Part shown: positions 36,891-50,643 of the stretch, piece by piece | How positions within the stretch are numbered: the first letter of the stretch is position 1 | Layout of the letters: every line of letters begins with the position of its first letter | Source: Desulfatitalea alkaliphila | GTDB taxonomy: Bacteria; Desulfobacterota; Desulfobacteria; Desulfobacterales; Desulfosarcinaceae | Direction of reading: 5' to 3' | Assembly (NCBI RefSeq): GCF_022968795.1 | Contig: NZ_JALJRB010000001.1 | Location: 248,001-312,000, forward strand | DNA length: 64,000 nucleotides | Notes under the pieces: model-generated | The model's input: the letters and a program-made list of their open reading frames with translations, nothing else | What the model was told of the DNA's origin: nothing | Database searches by the model: none | Made by a program: the position numbers and the translations under genes

Positions 36891-39197
36891 ATGGATCCGT
36901 TACAGATCGGGCAATCGCGCCCCAGGGGAGATGCGGCGGCCAAGGTGGCCGGCCGGGAGCCTTATGCGGCCGACGCCTATCCGGACAACCGGCTGTGGGC
37001 CCGGGCCGTGCGGCCCGGTGTACCCAGCGGGCGGATCGTGGGCCTGGCCTGCGATGCGGCCCTGGCGGTGCCGGGCGTGGTGAAAGTGCTGCGGGCCGGG
37101 GATGTGCCCGGCAGCAATCGCCAGGGCATCGTTCACAAGGACATGCCGGTGCTGGCCGACGACCGGGTGCGCTGCTGCGCTGACGCGGTGGCCCTGGTGC
37201 TGGCCGAAAGCCCGGCGGCGGCGGCGGCCGGCGCCGCGGCTGTCGCGGTGGAGATCGAACCCTTGCCGGGGGTGTACGATCTGGATGCCGCTCTGGCCGA
37301 AGCGGCCCACCTGGTGCACGCCGACCGGCCCGGCAACCTGCTGGCCCGGGCCACCATCCGCAAGGGCGACGGCGCGGATCCCCTGGCCCGCTGCGATGTG
37401 GTTGTGGAGGGCACTTTCACCACGCCGGTGCAGGCCCACGCCTTCCTGGAAACCGAGAGCGGCGTGGCGCGCCTGCAGCCCGACGGCACCTTGTGGATGC
37501 AGGTCTCCACCCAATCGCCCTTCCGGGACCGGTTCGAAATCGGTCACGCCCTTTCGATCCCCTACGACCGCATCCATATCGAAGCGCCTTGTTTAGGCGG
37601 CGGCTTCGGCGGCAAGGACGGCGCCACGGTGCAGTGCCTGCTGGGGCTGGCGGCCCTGCATGCCGACGGCCGGCCGGTAAAAATGGTCTGGGACCGGGAG
37701 GAGAGCTTCGTGGCCGGCTACAAGCGGCACGCCTGCCGGCTGCACTACCGCCTGGGCGCCCGCCGGGACGGCACCTTGCAGGCCCTACACGCCCGCATCT
37801 GGTACGACACCGGGGCCTACGCCCACCTGGGGGCCGAGGTGATGGAGCTGGGCATGGAGCACGCCGCCGGCCCTTACCGCATCCCCCACGCCCTGATCGA
37901 GGGTTGGTGCGTTCACACCCACAACCCCACGGCCGGGGCCATGCGCGCCTTCGGCGTCTGCCAGGTGAGCTTCGCCTTCGAATCGATGATGGACCTGCTG
38001 GCCCAGCGGTTGGGCATGGATCCCCTGGCGCTGCGCACGGCCAACGCCCTGGTGCGTGGCGACACCAACTGTGCCGGTATACACTTGGAGACCTCCACGG
38101 GCATCAAAGCCTGCCTGGCGCAGGTGGCCCGCCATCCGCTGTGGCGGGAGCGGGAGATCTGGCGACGACAGGCACCGCCCTTCAAGCGCCGGGGGGTGGG
38201 GCTGGCGGCGGTGTTCAATGCCGCCGGGTACGGCGGCGGGGTGCGCGACGCGGCCATCGCCAAGATCGAGATGGATCCGACGGGACACTTCATCGTGCAC
38301 AACGCCGTCAGCGACATGGGCCAGGGCAACAGCAGCGCCTTTATGCAGATGGCGGGGCATCTGCTGGGGCAGACCGCCGATCGGCTGCGGATCCGGCAGC
38401 CCGACACGCGCACGGCCTACCCCTCCGGCTCATCTTCGGCCGGCCGCACCACCTACACCTTCGGACGCGCGCTGACCTTTGCCTGCGAAACTTTGAAAAG
38501 CCGCTTGCTCAACCGGGCCGGCCTGATGCTGTTTTTGCAGGATGACGACGACCTGGTGCTCGAACCGGACCGGGTGCGCCACATCCCCACCGATCGCAGC
38601 GTCACCCTGGCGCAGTTGGGCGCCATGATGAGCGCCGAGGAGCGGGTCTGCCTGGGGCAGTTCGTGGCCCCCACCTGCAAGCCGGTGCCGGACACGGCCA
38701 CGGGCTTTTTCATCGGCTTTCCCCATGTGATCTTCAGCTACAGCGCCCACCTGGCCCGGGTGGAGATCGACACCCTCAGCGGCGTCGTCCAGGTAACGAA
38801 TTACCTGGCGGTCACCGACGGCGGCCATGTGATCAATCCGGCCATGTTCCATCAGCAAATCCAGGGGGGCGTGGCCCAAGGGATCGGCTATGCCCTGTAC
38901 GAGGATTTCATCACGCACCATGGGCGGGTGCGAACGGAAGATTTCACCACCTACATCATCCCCGGCGCCCTGGACCTACCGGAAATCGTCTCCGTCGCCT
39001 GCGTCGAGGAAACCGAGGCGACCGGGCCCTTCGGCATGAAGGGCATCGGCGAAGTGGCGATGAACGGCCCCCTGCCGGCCATCGCCAATGGGGTGGCGGA
39101 TGCCGGCATGGGGCGGATATGCCGAGCACCGTTGACGCCGGAACGGGTGTTGGACAACGGCGTTCGGGCGCCAGCGACGGCGCAACTTCAAAAATAA
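36891..39197 (+). CDS. Xanthine dehydrogenase family molybdopterin-binding (large) subunit
   Basis: 768 residues. N-terminal domain (DAAAKVAGREPYAADAYPDN), then the molybdopterin contacts QSPFRDRFEIGHALSIPYDR, APCLGGGFGGKDGATVQCLL near residue 236, and AFGVCQVSFAFESMMDLLAQ. The catalytic Glu is in MKGIGEVAMNGPLPAI near residue 717. It would hydroxylate a heterocycle or aldehyde using water, passing electrons to the 2Fe-2S and FAD subunits encoded just downstream. The substrate is unknown. Confidence 0.9.
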   Translation: MDPLQIGQSRPRGDAAAKVAGREPYAADAYPDNRLWARAVRPGVPSGRIVGLACDAALAVPGVVKVLRAGDVPGSNRQGIVHKDMPVLADDRVRCCADAVALVLAESPAAAAAGAAAVAVEIEPLPGVYDLDAALAEAAHLVHADRPGNLLARATIRKGDGADPLARCDVVVEGTFTTPVQAHAFLETESGVARLQPDGTLWMQVSTQSPFRDRFEIGHALSIPYDRIHIEAPCLGGGFGGKDGATVQCLLGLAALHADGRPVKMVWDREESFVAGYKRHACRLHYRLGARRDGTLQALHARIWYDTGAYAHLGAEVMELGMEHAAGPYRIPHALIEGWCVHTHNPTAGAMRAFGVCQVSFAFESMMDLLAQRLGMDPLALRTANALVRGDTNCAGIHLETSTGIKACLAQVARHPLWREREIWRRQAPPFKRRGVGLAAVFNAAGYGGGVRDAAIAKIEMDPTGHFIVHNAVSDMGQGNSSAFMQMAGHLLGQTADRLRIRQPDTRTAYPSGSSSAGRTTYTFGRALTFACETLKSRLLNRAGLMLFLQDDDDLVLEPDRVRHIPTDRSVTLAQLGAMMSAEERVCLGQFVAPTCKPVPDTATGFFIGFPHVIFSYSAHLARVEIDTLSGVVQVTNYLAVTDGGHVINPAMFHQQIQGGVAQGIGYALYEDFITHHGRVRTEDFTTYIIPGALDLPEIVSVACVEETEATGPFGMKGIGEVAMNGPLPAIANGVADAGMGRICRAPLTPERVLDNGVRAPATAQLQK

Positions 39198-43045: not shown

Positions 43046-43717
43046 ATGAATGTGATTGGTTTCATTCGCGACAACGCCTCCCTGGTCCTGGCATATACAG
43101 GCAACCATATCGCCTTGGTGCTGGTGGTGCTTGCACTGTCCTTGGGTTTGTGGATCTCGACGGGGTTGCTCATCAGCCGCCATGAACGCCTGGCCGGCGC
43201 CGTCATCGGCCTGGGCAATGTGATCTTCTGCATTCCGAGCATTTCCCTGTTCGGCCTGTTCATGAGCGTTCCCGGCCTGGGCCTGGGCCGTAGAACCGCC
43301 ACCCTCGTATTGGTCCTTTATGCCATGATGCCGCTGGTCCGCAGCGTGCACGCCGGCATCCGTTCGGTGGACGGCACCGTAGTGGACGCCGGCAAAGGCA
43401 TGGGCATGACCGGCCTGCAACTTCTGCTCAAAATTCAGGTGCCCATGGCCTGGCCGGCGGTTTTCGCCGGCATCCGGGTCACGGTGGTGTTGATCACGGG
43501 CATTGCCACCATGGCCACCTTCATCGGCGAGCGCAATCTGGGACGGCTGATCCACCAGGGCATCACCCGCGGCGATGCGGAGATGATCATCGCCGGGGCC
43601 CTGATCGTATCGGTGATCGCGCTGGCGCTGGACTACGCAATGGGCCGCATGGAACGTATCATTATATCGCCCGGCTTGCAGGTTCAGGGCGGAGAAAGGC
43701 CGCGGGTCGGCGCATGA
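43046..43717 (+). CDS. OpuB/ProW-type osmolyte ABC transporter permease
   Basis: 223 residues from the ATG at 43046; the frame opens 18 codons earlier and neither start has a strong ribosome site. Five or six hydrophobic segments and the BPD signature region VDAGKGMGMTGLQLLLKIQV followed by WPAVFAGIRVTVVLITG. Import of glycine betaine, choline or related compounds is typical. It overlaps the ATPase gene by 4 nt. Confidence 0.88.
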   Translation: MNVIGFIRDNASLVLAYTGNHIALVLVVLALSLGLWISTGLLISRHERLAGAVIGLGNVIFCIPSISLFGLFMSVPGLGLGRRTATLVLVLYAMMPLVRSVHAGIRSVDGTVVDAGKGMGMTGLQLLLKIQVPMAWPAVFAGIRVTVVLITGIATMATFIGERNLGRLIHQGITRGDAEMIIAGALIVSVIALALDYAMGRMERIIISPGLQVQGGERPRVGA

Positions 43718-44685
43718 TTCAACTCGAACAGGTCAGCAAGACGTTCCGCGGCAGCCGGCAGCCGGCGGTGGACCGGATCACGCTGCGGGTGAAGCAGGGC
43801 GATATCTGCGTGCTGGTGGGCCCTTCGGGCTGCGGCAAAACCACCCTCCTGCGCATGATCAACCGGCTGGTGGAGCCGGACGACGGCATGATCACCGTTG
43901 ACGGCCGGTCCATCGCACAGATGGATCCACCGACGCTGCGGCGCACCATCGGCTATGTGATCCAGCAGGTGGGGTTGCTGCCCCACCGCACCATTGCGCA
44001 AAACATCGCTCTGGTACCGGAACTGCTCAAGTGGCCACGGGAGAAGACAGCGCGGCGGGTTGCGGCGTTGCTTGAAATGATGGACCTGGATCCGGGCGAG
44101 GTGGGCCACAAATACCCCCATCAATTGAGCGGCGGGCAGGCGCAGCGTGTCGGTGTGGCCCGGGCCCTGGCGGCCGATCCACCCATCATGCTGATGGACG
44201 AGCCATTTGCCGCCGTGGATCCCATCGTCCGGGTGCGTTTGCAGGACCAATTGCTGCGGTTGCAGCAAACCATGCAAAAGACCATCTGCTTTGTCACCCA
44301 CGACATCAATGAAGCGATCAAGCTGGGCGACCACCTGGTGGTTTTAAAAGCGGGCCGCATGGTCCAGTCCGGCACCCCCCTGGACATATTGACCCAGCCG
44401 GAGAATGATTTTGTCCTGCGCCTGCTGGGAGACGACCGGGGTGTCAAGATCCTGGACCAGACCCGCGCCGAGACCCTGATGGATCCCTTCGCCGATGCTG
44501 CGGCACAAGCCGCGGCCAACGGGCACCGGGTCCAGGCCATCGACCCGGTAAAAATCGCCCTGGAACGGATGATGCTGATGAACACCGACGAAATTACGGT
44601 TTGCGAGGGTGCCCGGCCGGTCGGCCTGCTGCGTTGGAACGCGATCAAGGCGCACGTCCACCGGATCAGCGGCGGTGCATCATGA
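43714..44685 (+). CDS. OpuB-type osmolyte ABC transporter ATP-binding protein
   Basis: 323 residues. Walker A GPSGCGKTT, the Q-loop GYVIQQVGLLPHRT, signature LSGGQAQRVGVARALA, Walker B IMLMDEPFAAVDPIVR and the H-loop FVTHDINEAIKLGDH. The C-terminal 70 residues look like a shortened CBS-like sensor domain, which in OpuA responds to ionic strength. It overlaps both neighbouring permease genes by 4 nt. Confidence 0.93.
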   Translation: MIQLEQVSKTFRGSRQPAVDRITLRVKQGDICVLVGPSGCGKTTLLRMINRLVEPDDGMITVDGRSIAQMDPPTLRRTIGYVIQQVGLLPHRTIAQNIALVPELLKWPREKTARRVAALLEMMDLDPGEVGHKYPHQLSGGQAQRVGVARALAADPPIMLMDEPFAAVDPIVRVRLQDQLLRLQQTMQKTICFVTHDINEAIKLGDHLVVLKAGRMVQSGTPLDILTQPENDFVLRLLGDDRGVKILDQTRAETLMDPFADAAAQAAANGHRVQAIDPVKIALERMMLMNTDEITVCEGARPVGLLRWNAIKAHVHRISGGAS

Positions 44686-45350
44686 ACTTCGACACGACAC
44701 TGTTTCTACAAGCCCTGCTGCACCGCGCCCCCGGGCACATTGCCGAACACCTGCAACTGGTCCTGATCCCATTGACCCTGGCCGTGTTGATTGCCATGCC
44801 CGCGGGGATACTGCTGACCCGGCCGGCCTACCGCCGCCAAGCTGAGCGGGTCATGTCGGTGTTCAACGCCGGCCAGACCATCCCGCCCCTGGCGGTGATC
44901 GCCCTTTTCTTTCCTTTCATGGGGTTGGGCTACGGGCCGGCCGTGCTGGCCTTGACCATTTACGCCCTTTTGCCCATTGCCAGGAACACCGTCGCGGCCA
45001 TTGCTTCCGTTCCCGAGGAGGTGAAGGAGGCGGCGCGAGGGATGGGCATGACCCCCGGGGAAATTTTCTTCCGCGTGGAACTGCCGTTGAGCATTCCCAC
45101 CATTATGACCGGCATCAAAACGGCGGCGGTACTGACGGTCAGCACCGCCGTGCTGGCGGCCCTGGTCGGCGGCAAGGGAATGGGCGCCATCATTTTCGCG
45201 GGTATCCATTTTTTTCGTTTCGAGCTGGTGCTGGCCGGCACGCTCTACATCGGCATCATGGCCATCTCGCTGGAGCGCGGGCTGGCGCTGCTGGAACGGA
45301 AACTGACGCCGCCCCATCTGAAATCCGCCCGGCGCAGGGGCACCATTTAG
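44682..45350 (+). CDS. OpuB/ProW-type osmolyte ABC transporter permease, second
   Basis: 222 residues beginning at the ATGA overlap. The membrane topology and the loop EEVKEAARGMGMTPGEIFFR with VELPLSIPTIMTGIKTAAVL identify a second permease, so the channel is a heterodimer as in OpuB/OpuC. The downstream substrate-binding gene follows after 95 nt. Confidence 0.9.
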   Translation: MNFDTTLFLQALLHRAPGHIAEHLQLVLIPLTLAVLIAMPAGILLTRPAYRRQAERVMSVFNAGQTIPPLAVIALFFPFMGLGYGPAVLALTIYALLPIARNTVAAIASVPEEVKEAARGMGMTPGEIFFRVELPLSIPTIMTGIKTAAVLTVSTAVLAALVGGKGMGAIIFAGIHFFRFELVLAGTLYIGIMAISLERGLALLERKLTPPHLKSARRRGTI

Positions 45351-45445
45351 GCAAGCGCAAAAAACACACCTATTGAGCGCCCGGATGGCTTCGAGAAGGT
45401 GAACTGGTCTTTGCGTGCGCCCAAATAATGAAGAAAGGAATTCCC

Positions 45446-46402
45446 ATGAAACCTTTGCACAAATGTTTGGCCGCCTGCCTGCCGCTGTTGCTGCTGCTTC
45501 TCGCCGGCTGCGGCAACGGCGAACGCGCTTCCGATGACCGTCCCGAACTCAAGATCGCCGCTGCCGCGGAGTGGACCGAGCGTTCCGACGGCCTGCGCGG
45601 TTTCCAGGAACACTACGGGTTTGCATTTCCGGAAATCGCGGTGGTGGACCTGGGCCTGGCTTACCAGGCGGTGGGCACCGGCCTGGCCCATGTCGGTGTC
45701 GGCGACGCCACCGAAGGCCGCATCGCGCGCTACGATCTGGTGATCCTCGACGATGACCAGGGCTTTTTTCCGGCCTACAATCCGGCACCGGTGGTGCGGG
45801 CGGAAATACTGGTCATCTATCCCGAACTGGCCGACATCCTCAAGCAGTTGTCATCCCGCCTGACGCTTGAAACCCTGGTGCAACTCAACAAACAGGTTTC
45901 CATCGACAAGCTCATGCCCCAACAGGTGGCGCAGGAATGGCTCATCGCACAAGACTTGATCCATGAGCAGCAGCAGGACACCGATACCGCCAGGCAGACC
46001 CCCATCGTCGTCGGCGGCAAGACCTTCACGGAAGCGCTGACCCTGGGCTACCTGACCAAGTATCTGCTGGAAGACCGCGGCTACAAGGTCGTCGATGAGA
46101 TCGGGCTGGGCGAGGTGGCCGTCATCACACCGGCCCTTTTTGCCGGTCGTATCGATCTGTACTGGGAGTACACCGGCACCGGACTGATGAATGTCATGGG
46201 CCATGACCGTGTGGTCTCCGATCCGCAAACCTGCTGGGAATTGGTACGGGACTGGTACATGGAAAACCACAACGTGGTCTGGCTGGACTACGCACCCGCC
46301 AACAACACCTTTGTTCTTTTCACCTCCCGTGAGCTGCATGCAAAGCACGGTTGGCGCACCGTCTCCGATCTGGCAGCCTATGTGAACCGCGCACCGCAGT
46401 GA
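45446..46402 (+). CDS. OpuBC-like osmolyte-binding lipoprotein with swapped (circularly permuted) halves
   Basis: 318 residues with AAAGGAA upstream. A signal peptide ends in the lipobox LAGC (Cys22). In ordinary OpuBC/OpuCC proteins the half starting with the K-x-(F/M)TE motif comes first and the half with the DG-x(3)-F...YGF motif second. Here residues 34-170 carry the usual second half (SDGLRGFQEHYGF, EGRIARYDLVILDDDQGFFP, LETLVQLNKQVSIDKL) and residues 186-312 the usual first half (VVGGKTFTEALTLGY, LFAGRIDLYWEYTGTG, HGWRTVSDLAAY). A linker (about 170-186) joins them. The fold could still form two complete lobes. The ligand is likely a quaternary amine. Confidence 0.88.
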   Translation: MKPLHKCLAACLPLLLLLLAGCGNGERASDDRPELKIAAAAEWTERSDGLRGFQEHYGFAFPEIAVVDLGLAYQAVGTGLAHVGVGDATEGRIARYDLVILDDDQGFFPAYNPAPVVRAEILVIYPELADILKQLSSRLTLETLVQLNKQVSIDKLMPQQVAQEWLIAQDLIHEQQQDTDTARQTPIVVGGKTFTEALTLGYLTKYLLEDRGYKVVDEIGLGEVAVITPALFAGRIDLYWEYTGTGLMNVMGHDRVVSDPQTCWELVRDWYMENHNVVWLDYAPANNTFVLFTSRELHAKHGWRTVSDLAAYVNRAPQ

Positions 46403-46514: not shown

Positions 46515-46997
46515 TCAACTGCAACACGACGGGTGCCGGCGCGCGAACCGGCCGGCGTCGGTCACCACCGCCGTGATGGTCGGCATCATGCGGCGGCGCA
46601 CATAACGGGTACGATCCAGCAGGACGACGAGCACCACGCCGGCGGCCAAACCGGCGCCACCCATCAGCACGGCTCCGGCGGTTTCGTTCCACCCCATGGG
46701 CTGCGCCAGCCAAAGACCGGCAAACGCGCCGCACAGCAGCAGCAACACCGGCATGAGATAGAAGATGAACGCCCCTTTGAGCAATTCCGATGTCCGCAAA
46801 CGAATCTTCACCATATCGCCCGTGCGCGCGTTGATCGGGTTGGCCACACGGCTCTCCATCTTGGAAACCGTCAGACAGGAACGACATGCATCGCCAGCGC
46901 CGGTGTGGCACCCGCCGCAAGCACCTGTGCGATTCGTCATCACGATGGCCCAGCCGTCACTATGATGTTTCCGTACGATCCCTATTTGTTCGGCCAT
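46515..46997 (-). CDS. rseC: RseC/MucC-family SoxR-reducing protein
   Basis: 160 residues from the ATG at 46997, with AAGGGAGGG upstream. The N-terminal cysteine cluster GACGGCHTGAGDACRSC is followed by two transmembrane helices (AFIFYLMPVLLLLCGAFAGL and AGAVLMGGAGLAAGVVLVVL). The family is associated with SoxR reduction and with Rnf complexes; here no Rnf or sigma-E genes are near. Its stop lies 112 nt past the stop of the convergent binding-protein gene. Confidence 0.85.
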   Translation of the reverse strand: MAEQIGIVRKHHSDGWAIVMTNRTGACGGCHTGAGDACRSCLTVSKMESRVANPINARTGDMVKIRLRTSELLKGAFIFYLMPVLLLLCGAFAGLWLAQPMGWNETAGAVLMGGAGLAAGVVLVVLLDRTRYVRRRMMPTITAVVTDAGRFARRHPSCCS

Positions 46998-47499
46998 AAT
47001 CCCTCCCTTCGGCGACGTACCCGGCAATTGGACACTGCCCCGAAAAATCGGCAGCATCAGTGGCCATCCATCGCCCTCTTCACAACGCCATGGCCGTCTT
47101 TGTCTCAAATGATCGACCTTCGGCTCTAACAAAACAACCTAAGCACTGTTGGGTTGAAGTGAAGCGATACGGCGTGGATACCAAGGATTCCGGCACCCCT
47201 TCGGCCGGCATTATGCCAGGCAAACAGGTGCGGTGGGTGCTGAAGGAGTGTCCCGCAAACGAATCCGACCTCGGGTTTCTAAGAATGCGAGCTATTTTCC
47301 ATCAAAGGTGTAAAGTTTTCATGGAGTGGCACCGATAGGGAAAGAGCAGTGCCCATAATTTGCCTGGGCATAAGACATTGCATTTTATGGGGTTTTGGGG
47401 GAATTAATAGGGGGGGGGCAGGACTCGCCGGCATGGATAGCGACCCACCCGGTTAGGCTTCTACTTTTGCAAGGACATCGATTAAGGAGAGGAGGTTGT
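46998..47499. other. Intergenic region, no supported gene
   Basis: About 500 nt between divergent genes. It contains a run of nine G at 47411-47419. Open frames here lack coding character; a promoter for the downstream binding-protein gene is expected, but no clear boxes were found. Confidence 0.5.
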
Positions 47500-48780: not shown

Positions 48781-49188
48781 CTTGGAAATACGATCAATAA
48801 TAGCTCCCGCACCTACCCACGCAGCCGGATAAATGCCAAATCGCACATGTTTGTGGAAACTCGAGGAGAGCCGGTACGCTTTAGCCGGATGCACCGCTTT
48901 TAAACGCGTGTGCGCTTCCCATACCAAGACTACATGCGATGGCTCTGGGAATGTCACAGCTATAGTTTGCGCAAATCCCTGCAACCTGATACTTTAATGT
49001 GCTATAAATTGTTCGTATGTCTTTTATAACCATCGCCACTGCCTCGGGATTCGACCCAGGGGGCCGCGCTGCATTCTGATCGATGCCGACCCTTAAAACA
49101 GCCGTTTCAAACCATTACCAGGCAACACATCCTCTACAGCCGCCGAGCCAATCACTGGCCGGACGCAAAAAGGAAAGGAGTTGTGATC

Positions 49189-50643
49189 ATGACGGATAAA
49201 AATAACAAACCCACCACCAACGATGCAGGCAACCCTGTTTCCAGCGACGAGTTTTCCCTTTCTGTAGGCGCCGACGGTCCCATTCTACTCCAGGACCACT
49301 ACCTCCTCGAGCAGATGGCCAACTTCAACCGGGAGATGATTCCGGACCGCCAGCCCCATGCCAAGGGCTCGGGGGCCTTCGGCCACTTCGAGGTGACCAA
49401 GGATGTCAGCGCCTACACCAAGGCGGTCCTATTCCAGCCGGGGACGAAGACGGACGTGCTGGCCCGTTTCTCCACCGTGGCCGGCGAGAGCGGCAGCCCC
49501 GACACCTGGCGGGACGTGCGCGGGTTTGCGCTCAAGTTCTACACCCCCGAAGGCAACTACGACATGGTGGGCAACAACACGCCGGTGTTCTTCGTGCGCG
49601 ATCCCATGAAGTTCCAGCATTTCATCCATTCGCAGAAGCGCCGCGCGGACAACGGGCTGCGGGACAACGACATGCAGTGGGACTTCTGGACCCTGTCGCC
49701 GGAAACCGCCCACCAGGTGACCATCCTGATGAGCGATCGCGGCGTGCCCCGCAGCTATCGGCACATGAACGGCTACACCAGCCACACCTACATGTGGGTC
49801 AACGCCAAAGGCGAGCGCTTCTGGGTGAAGTACCATTTCAAGACCGACCAGGGCATCGAGTTTCTCACCCAGGAGGAGGCCGACCGGATTGCCGGCGCGG
49901 ATGCCGACTACCATCGGCGAGACCTTTTCGATGCGATCAAGCGTGGCGACCACCCCAGCTGGACCCTCAAGGTGCAGATCATGCCCTTCGCCGAAGCCGC
50001 CACCTACCGTTTCAACCCCTTCGATCTGACCAAGGTGTGGCCCCACAACGACTATCCGCTGCACGAAGTCGGCCGTTTGACCCTGACCCGCAACCCCAGC
50101 GATTTCCACACGGAGATCGAACAGGCGGCCTTCGAGCCCAACAGCTTCGTCCCGGGGATCGGACCGAGCCCGGACAAAATGTTGCTGGCCCGCCTGTTCT
50201 CCTACGCCGACGCCCACCGGGCCCGCCTTGGCGTCAACTACAAACAGATCCCGGTCAACCGGCCGGTCAGCCCGGTGCACAGCTACAGCAAGGGCGGCAC
50301 GATGCGGGTCGAAAACGTCCGCGATCCGGTGTACGCACCCAACTCCAAGGGCGGCCCCAAGGCCGACCCTGAGCGCTATCCCGAACAGGCTGTCTGGCAA
50401 GCCGACGGTGACTTTGTCCGTGCGGCCTATACGCTGCGCAAAGACGATGACGATTGGGGGCAGCCCGGCACCCTGGTACGCAAGGTGATGGATGACGCGC
50501 AGCGGGATCGCCTGGTGGCCAACGTGGTGGGCAATCTCAAAGGCGGCGTGTCCGAACCGGTGCTGGCGCGCGCCTTGGAATATTGGCGCAACATCGACAA
50601 AGAGGTCGGCGATCGTATTGCCAAGGGCGTGAAAGAGGGCTGA
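49189..50643 (+). CDS. katA: Monofunctional haem catalase (small-subunit clade)
   Basis: 484 residues from the ATG at 49189, with AAGGAG 8 nt upstream; a GTG two codons earlier is less likely. Catalase core: [17 protein letters not shown] with the catalytic His, [35 protein letters not shown] with the catalytic Asn, and [14 protein letters not shown] with the haem-ligand Tyr. It dismutates hydrogen peroxide. In an anaerobe this would serve oxygen tolerance. It is monocistronic and preceded by a decayed transposase. Confidence 0.96.

Follow-up and report, generated by a model that had tools for sequence, protein, structure and literature searches.

Circular permutations in natural proteins tend to be reported as ancient events that happened once. 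A permuted betaine-binding protein as such is already known: the CPSARST report of 2008 (PMC2395249) included circular permutation in glycine betaine-binding proteins, and OpuAC of Bacillus subtilis (BsOpuAC) is a permuted version of the arrangement in L. lactis OpuA and ChoX, with its cut in the same loop as in the protein described here. Treponema pallidum TpMglB-2 (Tp0684) is likewise circularly permuted and tethered, and still binds its ligand (PMC4990184), but it has a type I fold, binds sugar and belongs to another family. OpuBC, OpuCC, EgtUC and AfProX, of subcluster F-III, share a Pfam family and kind of operon with our protein, and their chains run A-B. In EgtUC, lobe D1 comprises residues 232-331 and 445-503 and lobe D2 residues 341-432, and the cage consists of F293, Y341, Y419 and Y443 with N339 at its base (PMC9732360). 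In the literature that we searched, largely outside subscription papers, we found the OpuBC/OsmF-type subfamily nowhere described as permuted, and repeated permutation in it appears to be unreported within that literature.

The window analysed here is the whole 64,000-nucleotide stretch of Desulfatitalea alkaliphila DNA. It encodes what is very probably an intact tethered binding protein of a ProU/OpuC-type ABC importer, circularly permuted and belonging to a subfamily in which permutation has recurred.

Domain order of the binding lipoprotein and its operon

The permuted substrate-binding lipoprotein (318 aa; 45446-46402, forward strand) lies in an open reading frame of 324 aa (45428-46402) that is also open from an ATG at 45428. 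The ATG at 45446, which the initial annotation had chosen, is the likelier start, since an AGGA ribosome site lies upstream of it and the alignment with a 79% identical homologue begins there. A signal peptide with a lipobox (LAGC) occupies 45446-45511, the predicted lipidated Cys28 (324-aa numbering) being encoded at 45509-45511; G27 and C28 are almost invariant in an alignment of 21 permuted proteins.

The Pfam OpuAC model (PF04069) matches the protein with E=4.7e-46 and 157.9 bits against a gathering cut-off of 21.2, and it does so in two stretches of swapped rather than co-linear order. Residues 40-172 correspond to model positions 114-255 and come first, whereas the second half, scanned alone, corresponds to positions 2-113. 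Segment B, normally the C-terminal half, therefore leads (45548-45961; most of lobe D2 together with the C-terminal part of D1, holding E48, R52, D93 and Y117). It is followed by a linker that bridges the ancestral C- and N-termini (45962-46000), which is variable in alignments and forms a block of pLDDT 64 between confident segments, and then by segment A, normally the N-terminal half (46001-46390; the N-terminal part of D1, the hinge strand and the start of D2, holding K198, Y248, T251, N293 and F295).

Each PDB relative among the matches listed aligned in at least two stretches, in reverse order wherever the residues were displayed. A canonical-order paralogue from the same genome (L002/L087) matched the protein as encoded in two separate BLAST stretches, each of half length and scoring 111 and 85 bits, and gave a single full-length match of 180 bits once it was rotated; end-to-end alignment with canonical relatives was achieved only on rotation. 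The order is thus B-A by Pfam, PDB alignments and BLAST, as opposed to A-B in OpuBC and OpuCC, which bears out the swapped halves first proposed for this gene. The full length claimed at the same time also holds: the counterparts of residues 167-308 and then 30-164 of a canonical relative (L109) are all present, and the domain is complete. The best NCBIfam model, that of YehZ (OsmF) of E. coli and Brucella (NF049931), likewise matches in two stretches with 158.4 bits, below its cut-off of 400 bits, and YehZ itself has the canonical order.

Directly upstream on the same strand lie permease 1 (BPD_transp_1, 43046-43717; PF00528, E=2.8e-15), an ATPase of the ProV/OpuCA type (43714-44685; PF00005, and TIGR01186 proV with 309 bits, below the cut-off of 326.6) and permease 2 (BPD_transp_1, 44682-45350; PF00528, E=4.9e-24). 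The frame of permease 1 is open from 42992, its start being picked by comparison with the homologue in L032, and this permease is present in every operon of the window's clade, here called the soda clade. This operon of permease, ATPase, permease and binding-protein genes is common to the whole clade across two phyla, which suggests that it moved between phyla as a unit. Sharing across the clade is limited to these four genes, and conserved neighbours gave no clue to the ligand. The flanking region encodes a molybdopterin oxidoreductase subunit (36891-39197, forward), an RseC/MucC protein (46515-47132, reverse) and a catalase (49183-50643, forward), together with an ABC_sub_bind protein (PF04392; 47395-48498) that stands alone, with no permease beside it in the list of open reading frames.

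Predicted fold, cut position and binding site

An AlphaFold2 run on the protein with 21 permuted homologues predicted one confident protein (mean pLDDT 88.6, pTM 0.82), superseding an earlier run on 10 sequences (pLDDT 75.8). In a sequential Foldseek search with this model, the top five matches were all BsOpuAC, over about 295 columns (2b4m, 3chg, 5nxx and 2b4l among the entries), and among betaine-type proteins only the permuted BsOpuAC matched sequentially over that length. Canonical OpuBC, OpuCC, EgtU and YehZ matched over about 140 columns only, with an rmsd mostly of 1.2-4 Å and 30-36% identity. Full-length matches to BsOpuAC and half-length matches to canonical proteins are the pattern expected from circular permutation of a protein folded as modelled. 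TM-scores to OpuAC were moderate (0.48-0.54, by query), as for an overall related fold rather than a close copy. The confident model and the half-chain superpositions would be consistent with the F-III trait of two lobes with two long hinge strands, and we infer an ordinary two-lobed Venus-flytrap fold.

On EgtU, the cut corresponds to a position near residue 367, within D2 (341-432), and the clean break between lobes envisaged by the initial annotation does not hold. The new termini would have been opened in a D2 loop between the 'SDLAxY' helix and the following strand, while a short linker would have joined the ancestral N- and C-termini. Such an arrangement could arise by in-frame tandem duplication of a canonical gene followed by loss of the outer pieces; fused A-B-A-B intermediates or leftover duplicate pieces were looked for beside permuted genes, and none were found.

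Most of the predicted binding residues are conserved. When the EgtU cage positions were transferred by spacing, Y248, F295, Y117 and N293 were found at equivalent places, and the residues equivalent to the carboxylate-binding K242, T296 and R379 of EgtU (K198, T251 and R52) are conserved in the clade. The alignment shows K198, Y248, T251, E48 and R52 to be retained, and the cage and carboxylate-site positions coincide with those of F-III proteins (K198, Y248, T251, E48, R52, N293 and Y117), with the exception of the fourth cage aromatic, which is replaced here by Asp93 (45704-45706). This position, Y419 in EgtU, is Asp in 10/10 members of the window's clade and Phe or Tyr in 63 of the 64 other sequences. 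Judged from these residues, the protein most likely acts as an ordinary F-III binding protein: a solute would be captured between the lobes, the lobes would close, and delivery would be to the two permeases encoded directly upstream. A quaternary amine is the probable ligand, and the Asp93 replacement throughout the clade implies that the ligand may differ from simple betaines. Elsewhere in the same genome, the canonical-order betaine-type importer (L087:4271-11891) adjoins SAM synthetase-, sugar/adenosine-type kinase- and S-adenosylhomocysteinase-like genes, identified by eye from their translations; these neighbours suggest that this importer is tied to methyl metabolism.

With the cut in D2, the N-terminal lipid anchor would shift from lobe D1 to lobe D2. 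All of the permuted proteins carry an N-terminal membrane anchor, now on D2, in the form of a lipobox (imperfect in L039) or a permease fusion (L086), and every cut seen falls in D2. This regularity could mean that permutation was selected, because anchoring through D2 improves the docking or the freedom of the tethered protein, and a comparable idea was put forward for the permuted Treponema MglB-2 (PMC4990184). We consider such selection possible but doubtful. Lipoproteins also account for 41/85 of the canonical proteins in the set, so that the association may be phylogenetic, and our searches were biased toward cuts near the site in the window protein. The fuller proposal, in which permutation is recurrent and possibly adaptive and a D2 hot-spot loop is reopened because the shift of the anchor from D1 to D2 alters permease docking, is still speculative.

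Recurrence of the permutation

Independent assemblies carry the same swapped order. About 20 permuted relatives were recovered in Desulfobacterota and Bacillota, mostly within a permease-ATPase-permease operon, and most of the named members come from metagenome-assembled genomes. Close homologues of verified order, 59-79% identical, are present in Desulfatitalea, Desulfobacteraceae, a Desulfonatronospira MAG and Syntrophomonadaceae MAGs, and deeper ones in 9/398 genomes of the Bacillota sample and 6/389 genomes of the window's own class, the latter including one partial gene and one permease-fused form. Permuted homologues were also found in Actinomycetota; in the Pseudomonadota sample, searched without a positive control, none of the 249 genomes had one. 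In L127 (7136-14596), a complete importer operon is present in two near-identical tandem copies, each with a permuted binding protein, and in a genome from the same taxonomic order as the window a permease is fused to a permuted binding domain (L086:4415-5989, forward; 524 aa) beside a ProV-type ATPase. The dN/dS ratios were about 0.03-0.17 (per half, dN 0.04-0.16 and dS 0.7-1.8), and both halves are under purifying selection.

A maximum-likelihood tree with 200 bootstrap trees was calculated after rotating the permuted sequences to canonical order; the permease-fused L086/L074 protein, a long branch of uncertain placement, was excluded from the tests. The tree required five order changes, each forced by supported branches, and a single change was found in 0% of the 200 bootstrap trees. 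Approximately unbiased (AU) tests rejected a single clade of all permuted sequences (p=3.75e-6), a grouping of the soda clade with the c97 clade (p=2.6e-4) and one of L085 and L129 with c97 (p=2.2e-7); as the groups were chosen after the tree was seen, these p-values are somewhat optimistic. The canonical L090 is sister to the permuted L085 and L129, all three having GLTHEAL and TDGKI motifs in common. The tests did not reject a union of L096 and the soda clade (p=0.086) or of L099 and c97 (p=0.056), which limits the firm count within the subfamily to about four.

The permuted proteins of two Actinomycetota genomes (G1380 and G1464; L149:1399-2379, reverse, and L175:6658-7677, forward) are cut at a different place, after the DGLPGMEAHYGFEI helix, within a matching operon. 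Canonical orthologues from the same class and in the matching operon are up to about 80% identical to that of G1380 and 73% identical to that of G1464. In these recent cases the linker retains the former C-terminus joined to the former post-Cys spacer, as expected of tandem duplication followed by trimming. On these comparisons, the Actinomycetota permutation is a separate and recent event.

A rival history has a single ancient permutation in the subfamily, with the canonical order later restored several times or the halves recombined; parsimony alone cannot tell repeated gain from gain plus reversion, and the five changes do not decide between gains and losses. This history is nevertheless unlikely: the Actinomycetota proteins, differently cut and nested among canonical orthologues, must represent an event of their own, canonical order prevails across the sampled groups, and the exchange of halves offers no explanation, as trees of A alone and of B alone each require 6-7 changes. 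A single origin of the permuted proteins is strongly rejected by these sequence data, and a conservative count would be about four permutation events in the subfamily, in addition to that of BsOpuAC, usually opened at one loop.

Descent of the window protein from the BsOpuAC permutation itself would fit the shared circular order, loop cut and lipoprotein nature (2b4l), and in the sequential structural search it was BsOpuAC that matched the predicted model best. We regard it as very improbable. BsOpuAC belongs to the Trp-prism subfamily, its identity to the window protein is 13-14%, and profile comparison (probability 6.8%) gave no convincing co-linear match, whereas canonical OpuBC/OsmF-type proteins are far nearer, at 31-46% identity per half. 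The mapped cage positions of the window protein hold no Trp, although W246 lies nearby. Shared descent was rejected on the Foldseek identity and the profile comparison, and the window protein would represent a separate event. The initial annotation had suspected a known class; this was right as far as BsOpuAC and the CPSARST report go, but not in the subfamily, where the window protein stands as a case of its own.

It is hardly conceivable that halves of two unrelated binding proteins were joined into a functionless chimera or pseudogene: recombination could produce shuffled halves, but both match one family and sum to exactly one complete domain, purifying selection on each half completes the grounds on which these readings were ruled out, and the order and operon are kept in many genomes. 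Circular permutation, preferred from the outset to a chimera with a missing part, is the reading on which sequence, structure prediction with Foldseek, conserved order and low dN/dS in both halves agree. At the sequence level, the permutation, the conservation of its order and its occurrence more than once are established.

Implications for the family

About four permutations thus seem to have occurred in one family beyond the B. subtilis case, one of them recent, with canonical orthologues of up to 80% identity in the matching operon. The recent Actinomycetota pair permits a before-and-after comparison of folding, binding and docking, and the results help to interpret permuted genes annotated merely as 'OpuAC' with two matches. 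A rare type of protein evolution thereby becomes directly testable.
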